Source: Halorubrum sp. CSM-61 (GTDB lineage: Archaea; Halobacteriota; Halobacteria; Halobacteriales; Haloferacaceae). Taken from it: DNA of 64,000 nt. The first letter of the stretch is position 1. The number at the start of each line of letters is the position of its first letter. Where the stretch lies: NCBI RefSeq assembly GCF_003781945.1, contig NZ_RJJW01000002.1, positions 186,015 to 250,014 on the forward strand, read 5' to 3'. The notes below the pieces were generated by a model that worked only from the letters and a program-made list of their open reading frames with translations, did no database searches and was not told the DNA's origin. Positions 59,518 to 61,578 of this stretch are shown here, piece after piece. Position numbers and translations under genes: made by a program.

Positions 59518-60504
59518 CTACTCCAACCGCCCGACGTCGCCGAGCACCGCGCTGGCGGTCTCCGGGCCGCCGGCGCCCCGCCCGGAGATGTTGAGCCGGC
59601 CGGCGTGGCTGGTCTCGATCTGGACGATGTTCTGGGTCCCGGAGACCGCGAGCGTCCCGTTTTCGGGGACGAGCCGCGGCGCGACCCGGACCGTCTCGCC
59701 CGTCGCCTCCCCGATGAGCCGGACGGTCCGGCCGTCTTCGGCCGCGAGTCGGAGCGCCGAGCCGGGCACGTCGCGGATCCCCTCGACGTCGGCGTCGTCG
59801 AGCGTGAACTCCCGGGCGTCGGCCGGGTCGTCGACCGCGCCGAAGGATAGCACGTTCGCGAGAATGACGCACTTCAGCGCCGCGTCGGTCCCGTCCACGT
59901 CGAACGAGGGATCGGCCTCGGCGACGCCGAGGTCCTGCGCCTCCGCGAGCACGTGGTCGTAGTCGAGACCCTCGGCGGCCATCCGGGTGAGGATGAAGTT
60001 CGCCGTCCCGTTGAGCACGCCCCGGACCGCCGTGACGTGGCCCGGCTCGATGTCCTCGACGGTCGAGACCGCGGGGATCGCGCCCCCCACCGTCGCCTCG
60101 AACCGGATATCGCCCTCGCTGTCGTTCACGAGCGCGCGCAGGTCCCCGAACCGCTCCGCGACCGGGCCCTTGTTCGCCAAGACGGCGTGGCGGTCGCGCT
60201 CCAGCGCGGTCCGGACGTGCGAGAAGCCGGGCTCGGCGTCGCCCAGCGTCGTCGGCGTCGCCTCCACCAGCGCGTCGTAGTCGGCCGCGAGCGCGTCCGC
60301 GGGGTCGTCGTCGCCGACGATCCCTCGGTCGGCCTTGCGGGCCACCACCGCGTCGGGGTCGACGCCGACGTTCCGGCCGTCCGTCCCGTCCGCGACGACT
60401 GCCGACGAGGAGTCCGCGACCGCGACGACCTCGTGGCCGTACTCGCCCGCGAGGTCGACGACCGAGCGCCCGACCGCGCCCGCGCCGACGACGGTGAGTC
60501 TCAC
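59518..60504 (-). CDS. hom: Homoserine dehydrogenase
   Basis: The 328-residue enzyme starts at a GTG that overlaps the ACT gene stop. Rossmann loop [12 protein letters not shown] (about 7-18); [12 protein letters not shown] and [31 protein letters not shown] are the catalytic domain signatures. The Lys of [13 protein letters not shown] is the proton-transfer Lys. It reduces aspartate semialdehyde to homoserine for Thr, Met and Ile synthesis. It lacks a C-terminal ACT domain; the neighbouring ACT protein may replace it. Confidence 0.95.
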
Positions 60505-61094
60505 GCCTCCACCCCCGTGAGCGGCTCCACGAGACGCAGGTCCTTCTCGTCGGCCAGCTCCCGGACCGCCGCGACCGCGGCCTCCGTCTCCCCGGCGCGG
60601 GCCTCCAGGCGGAGCCGCGCGCTCGACGCCTCCTCGGTCCCCTGCGGCGCCGCCAGCGACACGTCGGCGACGGAGGCCGACTCGCAGGCCTCGATCCGCG
60701 AGAGGGTGTCCGAGAGGTCCGTGTCGATGAGGTGGCCGAAGAGCAGGATGGTCACCTCCTCGGCGTACCGCTCAGTTCCCGCCTGCATCACGTTCACGCC
60801 CTCGGTCCGGAGCGCCTCGACGATCCCCTCGAACCGCTCCGGGGTCGCCTCGAAGTCGACCTCGACCGGGATCCGACCGCGGGGCGTCTTGTTCCCGCGC
60901 TCGTGGTAGATCGAGAGGAGGTTCCCGCCGTTGTCGGCGATCGGGTGGAGCGCGGCGAGCAGCTGCCCCGGCTCGTCGGCGAGTTCGAGCCGCACCGTGT
61001 GCGTCGACGGCGTCGCCGAGGCGCGGCCGCCGTCCGGCGTGGCGTCCTCGTCGTCCGCCGCCTCCTCGGGGACGCCGTCGCGGGCGTCGCTCAC
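60501..61094 (-). CDS. ACT-domain amino-acid-binding protein, partner of homoserine dehydrogenase
   Basis: This is 197 residues from GTG 61094, set by GGAGGTG about 5-6 nt upstream and by the GTGA overlap with the leader ORF. The N-terminus is acidic and disordered. The ACT part begins HTVRLELADEPGQLLAALHPIADNGGNLLSIYHERG (about 33-68) and a second ACT-like half follows (VTILLFGHLIDTDLSDTLSRIE). It probably binds threonine or another aspartate-family product and regulates hom, overlapping it by 4 nt. Confidence 0.85.
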   Translation of the reverse strand: MSDARDGVPEEAADDEDATPDGGRASATPSTHTVRLELADEPGQLLAALHPIADNGGNLLSIYHERGNKTPRGRIPVEVDFEATPERFEGIVEALRTEGVNVMQAGTERYAEEVTILLFGHLIDTDLSDTLSRIEACESASVADVSLAAPQGTEEASSARLRLEARAGETEAAVAAVRELADEKDLRLVEPLTGVEA

Positions 61095-61258
61095 GCCGCC
61101 ACCTCCGCGTCGGGGGCGGTCGGCGGCGCGGCGAGTGGCGTTCCGGCGGTCGCCGTCGCCGCTGTGGTCGCGATTCGGCACGGTCCTGTCGGCGGGGCGG
61201 AGCGGTCGCTTGCTGGCTCCGTCGCGGTGCGCCGAGCGGGAGTCGTGCCCGTCTGCAT
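61091..61258 (-). CDS. Thr-rich leaderless upstream ORF (possible leader peptide)
   Basis: From ATG 61258 a 55-codon frame runs to a TGA that overlaps the GTG of the ACT gene (GTGA). Twelve of the 55 residues are Thr, including TTAATATAGT near the centre; Ala and Pro are also frequent. The TATA (61283-61290, minus) is 25-32 nt upstream, so the ATG would be the 5' end of the mRNA. If translated it would couple to the ACT-hom operon for threonine biosynthesis. GC-rich codons for Thr/Ala could also produce this by chance. No homologue is known to me. Confidence 0.4.
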   Translation of the reverse strand: MQTGTTPARRTATEPASDRSAPPTGPCRIATTAATATAGTPLAAPPTAPDAEVAA

Positions 61259-61282: not shown

Positions 61283-61290
61283 GTATAAGC
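61283..61290 (-). promoter_or_regulatory. TATA box of the ACT-hom operon
   Basis: On the minus strand, GCTTATAC lies 25-32 nt before ATG 61258. Transcription should start at or next to that ATG. Confidence 0.6.
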
Positions 61291-61578
61291 CTTCGGCGAT
61301 GGCAGGCGTTGCCTCACTCCCGTCCGTGTGAACTCACGGCACGGAAGTCGGCGGAAAAGCGGAGCGGATCGTCGCCGGGGACCCCACCGACAACCGTCTC
61401 GATCGCTCTCCGAACGGGACCGTTCCGACGCCTGTGACTAGTCCGTTCGAACGGATAAAATGCGTTATAAACCATAAATGTGGTTCTTTTCAATATTCTT
61501 CCTAACGAGAACGCCATACGGACTACGATCGTCGAATTGTTCCGAGGCCTTTTGAGTACGCTTATCGTATGAGACACG
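61291..61578. other. Intergenic region, promoter-like AT-rich part
   Basis: No gene is seen. From about 61435 to 61560 the sequence is AT-rich (ATAAAATGCGTTATAAACCATAAATG), with several TATA-like words. It may hold promoters for the downstream small gene at 61579 and perhaps an unrecognised RNA. Confidence 0.4.

Follow-up and report, generated by a model that had tools for sequence, protein, structure and literature searches.

Leader-peptide translation controlling biosynthetic operons is a textbook bacterial mechanism, and the locus described here raises the question of whether a short threonine-rich ORF preceding homoserine dehydrogenase could act as such a leader in an archaeon. Among the open-access papers searched, none described leader-peptide control of amino-acid genes in Archaea. 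In the start-site map of Haloferax volcanii (PMC4983044), the uORFs listed are those of 5'-UTRs 150-250 nt long, and the homoserine genes do not come up in the main text.

Locus organization and conservation of the upstream ORF

The window analysed is a stretch of 64,000 nucleotides from the chromosome of Halorubrum sp. CSM-61. On its minus strand, a promoter is followed by a 55-codon ORF, an ACT-domain gene and the homoserine dehydrogenase gene (hom), the three ORFs being linked through two GTGA overlaps, the second of which joins the ACT stop to the hom start (60504-60501). The upstream ORF (uORF) translates as MQTGTTPARRTATEPASDRSAPPTGPCRIATTAATATAGTPLAAPPTAPDAEVAA and includes 12 threonines; this frame, its threonine count and its overlap with the ACT gene had all been given in a preliminary description of the locus and were found again in the sequence. 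Coordinates of the features are given in Table 1.

Table 1. Features of the ACT-hom leader region; positions are those of the window.
Feature	Position	Strand	Basis
Operator-like imperfect palindrome GGCAACGCCTGCC, upstream of the promoter	61301..61313	-	conserved in Halorubrum leaders
BRE/TATA region GCCGAAGGCTTATA	61284..61297	-	fixed distance to ATG 61258
Thr-rich leaderless uORF, 55 codons + stop (candidate leader peptide)	61258-61091	-	frame kept in 50/51 Halorubrum loci
Conserved hairpin, mRNA nt 10-82	61177..61249	-	pairing across Halorubrum leaders
Hairpin P1	61249-61244/61182-61177	-
Hairpin P2	61234-61229/61198-61193	-	one mismatch in the window copy, which may pair in a shifted register
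Hairpin P3	61220-61216/61203-61199	-
Rare Thr codon ACT, leader codon 6	61241..61243	-	usual in the genus
Rare Thr codon ACA, leader codon 24 (proposed control codon)	61187..61189	-	in-frame ACA in 16 genera
Shine-Dalgarno motif GGAGGTG, inside the uORF end	61100..61106	-	sequence
GTGA overlap, uORF TGA with ACT GTG start	61094-61091	-	sequence
ACT-domain protein gene, second ORF of the operon	60501..61094	-	Pfam ACT, E=2.6e-5, under the curated cut-off
Homoserine dehydrogenase	59518..60504	-	Pfam Homoserine_dh, E=2.4e-48

The first T of a TTATA element (61288-61284) lies 30 nt upstream of ATG 61258, and the same spacing recurs in the Halorubrum orthologues (in L051 only after picking the second of two close ATGs), with distances of about 28-33 nt in other genera. 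The spacing is consistent with a leaderless mRNA whose transcription would start at this ATG. The palindrome upstream of the promoter, whose combination with TTATA is unique in the genome, is likely a transcription-factor site. GGCAACG also occurs upstream of the thrC promoter in several relatives (L171, L172, L176-L178, L180) and, since it is found before both hom and thrC promoters, a transcription factor probably acts here too; a shared regulator of the threonine genes is a possibility. In the readable thrC loci, which look leaderless, we saw no leader uORF.

We compared 51 Halorubrum loci, the window's own copy included. In 50 of them an ORF opens at the fixed ATG and its stop overlaps the start of ACT, always by the same 4 nt; the length of this ORF varies between 17 and 67 codons. 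The frame is kept across 23 different lengths, which implies many indels in steps of three, and on this comparison the presence of the uORF is beyond chance. Nearly all Halorubrum relatives have GGAGGTG or GGGGGTG as the Shine-Dalgarno (SD) motif. The single exception, L026, has one C missing from a C run that breaks the leader frame, which could be a sequencing error or a natural loss. Some Halorubrum carry a second copy of the ACT gene (L053-L057), with its own leaderless uORF of 11-13 codons and an ATGA overlap.

Among 80 loci from other haloarchaeal genera, 71 display a leaderless uORF that extends to the ACT start, and several of the nine misses have by eye the same arrangement but fall below the TATA threshold (e.g. 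L089, L095, L148). Distant families retain the leaderless uORF in a shorter form, mostly of 7-18 codons. A programmed frameshift from the uORF into ACT was rejected, as the offset of their overlap differs between lineages, from -8 to +4.

Threonine and isoleucine codons in the leader

At the genome-wide threonine frequency of 5.3%, about 2.9 residues would be expected per 55 codons, against the 12 observed. Those conserved in the genus occupy leader codons 3, 5, 6, 13 and 24, codon 11 alternates between Thr and Ile, and the other six of the 12 sit in a linker that is variable between species. Threonine accounts for 18.5% of codons in frame in the Halorubrum uORFs versus 3.9% and 3.0% out of frame, and for 15.3% versus 5.8% and 8.4% among 35 long uORFs from other genera, counts which, the leaders being homologous, are not independent events. 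By frame, Ile codons number 49/18/7 in Halorubrum and 54/7/22 in the long uORFs of other genera, and ACA codons 58/6/0 and 66/16/12, respectively. The locus therefore presents a short ORF before a pathway operon with codons for the end product enriched in frame, as in leader peptides. Threonine richness in relatives, on which the preliminary description had made its interpretation depend, holds, in frame only, for Halorubrum and, mostly within one family, for about 15 further genera; it does not extend to distant lineages, where 36 short uORFs lack enrichment (8.6, 9.6 and 7.5% by frame).

The codons involved are uncommon ones. Counted over about 114,000 codons from this genome, ACA and ACT represent 2.5% and 2.8% of Thr codons and ATT 3.7% of Ile codons; the leaders outside Halorubrum have ACA in 66 of 215 Thr codons and ATT in 24 of 54 Ile codons. 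With one leader per genus in 16 genera, Thr is the top residue at codons 20-30 (20.5% versus 2.8 and 5.7% out of frame). Of 36 leaders, 31 carry an in-frame ACA at codons 22-28, a placement found in 16 genera, compared with 3 and 0 in the other frames; the distance of this ACA from the ATG differs between genera by whole codons. The surrounding peptide takes forms such as ..PTTTSG.. (Haloferax marinum), ..PTTTVAT.. (Halogranum amylolyticum), ..SGTTTATA.. (Natronocalculus) and ..SPITIITATG.. (Haloferacaceae archaeon XH8), with Thr/Ile swaps and, in some genera, Ile-Thr-Ile-Ile at the control-codon site. The further expectation that the threonine signal would be kept while the sequence changes is thus borne out in Halorubrum and about 15 genera, and our argument rests on this signal staying in frame while the neighbouring sequence gets replaced.

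The uORF of aspartate kinase provides an internal negative control for an end-product codon signal held across about 16 genera. Scanning 1.25 of the 3.7 Mb of the genome for leaderless uORF overlaps yielded 18 candidates among 1091 genes, one of them in front of aspartate kinase. The aspartate kinase gene (L311, contig C12:25871-27049; L312-L337) has a leaderless uORF of 29-47 codons conserved in Halorubrum, where Thr takes up 42 of 708 in-frame codons, against 64 and 45 in the other frames, and ACA is absent in frame, which indicates that Thr-richness is not a general property of leaderless uORFs. This uORF is Ser/Arg-rich, with a stable frame and a fast-changing sequence, and runs about 10 nt into the gene start (..GTATGCGCGTAG). 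On contig C7 (L271-L287 joined), at 67906 of the minus strand, we also noted a Thr-rich candidate leaderless uORF of 30 codons, MHSPSTDTDATGAPATGTIRSTETNEVTRR, which precedes a dihydroorotase-like gene (MTEFVEIRNGRVVTPSG..).

The leader hairpin

By comparison, the Halorubrum leaders share a long hairpin of three helices, with the ACA of codon 24 on its 3' side. In the 20-pair model 94.8% of cells are paired, versus 32-43.5% when the model is slid, a control that favours the model because the structure was derived from these same sequences. The covariation is weak to modest, with five double-change cells and a score reached by 7 of 500 shuffles. First, second and third codon positions vary to an equal degree within the conserved core, which indicates that constraint at the nucleotide level is at least as strong as constraint on the peptide. 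A search with the hairpin model (R1) gave matches in Halorubrum and two nearby genera, a single one in each genome, so that no extra copies of the RNA element were seen. Across genera, 41 leaders show some tendency for the sequence just ahead of the control codon to pair upstream (mean z of 1.1 against shuffles), which is no more than suggestive.

The even variability and the extent of pairing, together with the location of ACA between helices in many predicted folds, are also what a structured RNA would give, either riboswitch-like or protein-binding, with an unpaired ACA motif that is in frame by accident. However, the ACA moves between genera in whole codons, in frame throughout and with Thr/Ile swaps, and three Halorubrum species (L039, L041, L047) have lost the hairpin yet keep a short Thr-containing uORF and its N-terminal Thr. 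The leader RNA has no match in Rfam, the best being at chance level (15.4 bits versus a cut-off of 40). We consider this structured-RNA explanation improbable.

A role for the hairpin in sequestering the SD motif through its 3' arm was also rejected, given that the predicted accessibility of the SD ranges from 0.02 to 0.86 and that its pairing partners are scattered, from which no conserved SD switch emerges.

The leader recalls E. coli thrL in being a short Thr-rich peptide with Ile placed directly before a homoserine-dehydrogenase operon, and in having an RNA hairpin beside the control codons. This likeness is what speaks for a classical thr-operon transcription attenuator, where the stalled ribosome selects between terminator and antiterminator hairpins. 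In contrast to thrL, the haloarchaeal leader has a leaderless start, a stop overlapping the first gene and no terminator, and its hairpin sits 5' of the main control codon, in an archaeal host; the main control codons lie on the hairpin's 3' side, which also counts against such an attenuator. The longest T run in the uORFs is 1-4 nt, mostly 1-2, and never above 4; no terminator-like U tract was found in them, and the leader overlaps ACT, so that an intrinsic terminator between the two was rejected. Archaeal termination is not known to be hairpin-driven, which counts further against an attenuator of this kind, and we give it hardly any credence. The bacterial thr-type scheme evoked in the preliminary description is thus not upheld as such; the coupling of translation in haloarchaea argues instead for a translational gate.

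Translation coupling and the proposed control of the operon

In H. volcanii, the same ACT/hom pair is strictly coupled by termination-reinitiation, a stop in the upstream ORF abolishing translation of the downstream one, and de novo SD initiation is non-functional (PMC6728339). The uORF/ACT junction bears the hallmarks of coupled pairs, namely a GTGA stop/start overlap and a GGAGGTG motif within the upstream ORF, the difference from the H. volcanii pairs being that the upstream partner here is a tiny leaderless uORF and no ordinary gene. Considering the strict coupling of ACT and hom in that species, which by analogy would apply in Halorubrum, the uORF is probably the ribosome entry gate of the operon, and translation of ACT, and via ACT that of hom, should depend on ribosomes completing the uORF.

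Ribosome delivery might be all that the uORF does, the Thr codons being incidental or merely slowing the ribosome. The strict coupling just described is in agreement with this explanation, as are the ribosome-delivering uORFs covered in a review (PMC12548453), the class-wide occurrence of the uORF, often at 7-18 codons without Thr enrichment, and the unrelated leaderless uORF of aspartokinase. It leaves unexplained the in-frame Thr/Ile codons with rare ACA in 16 genera, a signal missing from the aspartokinase uORF, and the conserved hairpin, and we regard it as rather unlikely.

We lean towards the 55-codon ORF encoding a leader peptide whose translation serves as the translational gate of the ACT-homoserine dehydrogenase operon, and the comparison suggests an archaeal Thr/Ile leader acting at the level of translation and no classical transcription attenuator. 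Ribosomes would load on the 5'-terminal AUG, translate the leader, terminate in the GTGA overlap, re-initiate on ACT and then again on hom. The rare Thr codons near codon 24 (Ile in some genera), along with Thr at codons 3-6, would tie ribosome passage to the supply of charged Thr/Ile tRNA. The hairpin, which begins 9 nt after the predicted 5' end, could form again once a fast ribosome has passed and so impede loading of the next one, whereas a ribosome that lingers on codon 24 would mask the hairpin 3' strand and leave the 5' end open for leaderless loading, such that a moderate Thr shortage would bring more ribosomes onto the operon. The sign of this response is uncertain, since under strict coupling prolonged stalling within the leader ought to reduce expression of the operon. 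A more tentative proposal, plausible on the sequence evidence, is that haloarchaea sense Thr/Ile-tRNA charging via a leaderless leader peptide in which control codons on the hairpin's 3' side regulate loading of the coupled operon. Against the leader-peptide reading stand the distant families that retain the uORF without Thr, the even variability over codon positions in the core, the weak covariation and the lack of a conserved SD switch.

This scheme resembles bacterial translational attenuation leaders such as those of erm, where a ribosome dwelling on the leader alters mRNA structure and translation. It differs from them in that the signal would be aminoacyl-tRNA supply and the step affected leaderless loading, and no conserved SD switch is seen. 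If true, it would amount to amino-acid leader-peptide control in Archaea by a mechanism unlike bacterial attenuation. Sensing of amino acids through leader translation would become directly testable in Haloferax, where coupling reporters exist and where the motif occurs in several species, for example as MRTGTSPDSCRVDAEPRLSHASPTTPSGRPTEVGR in H. profundi.
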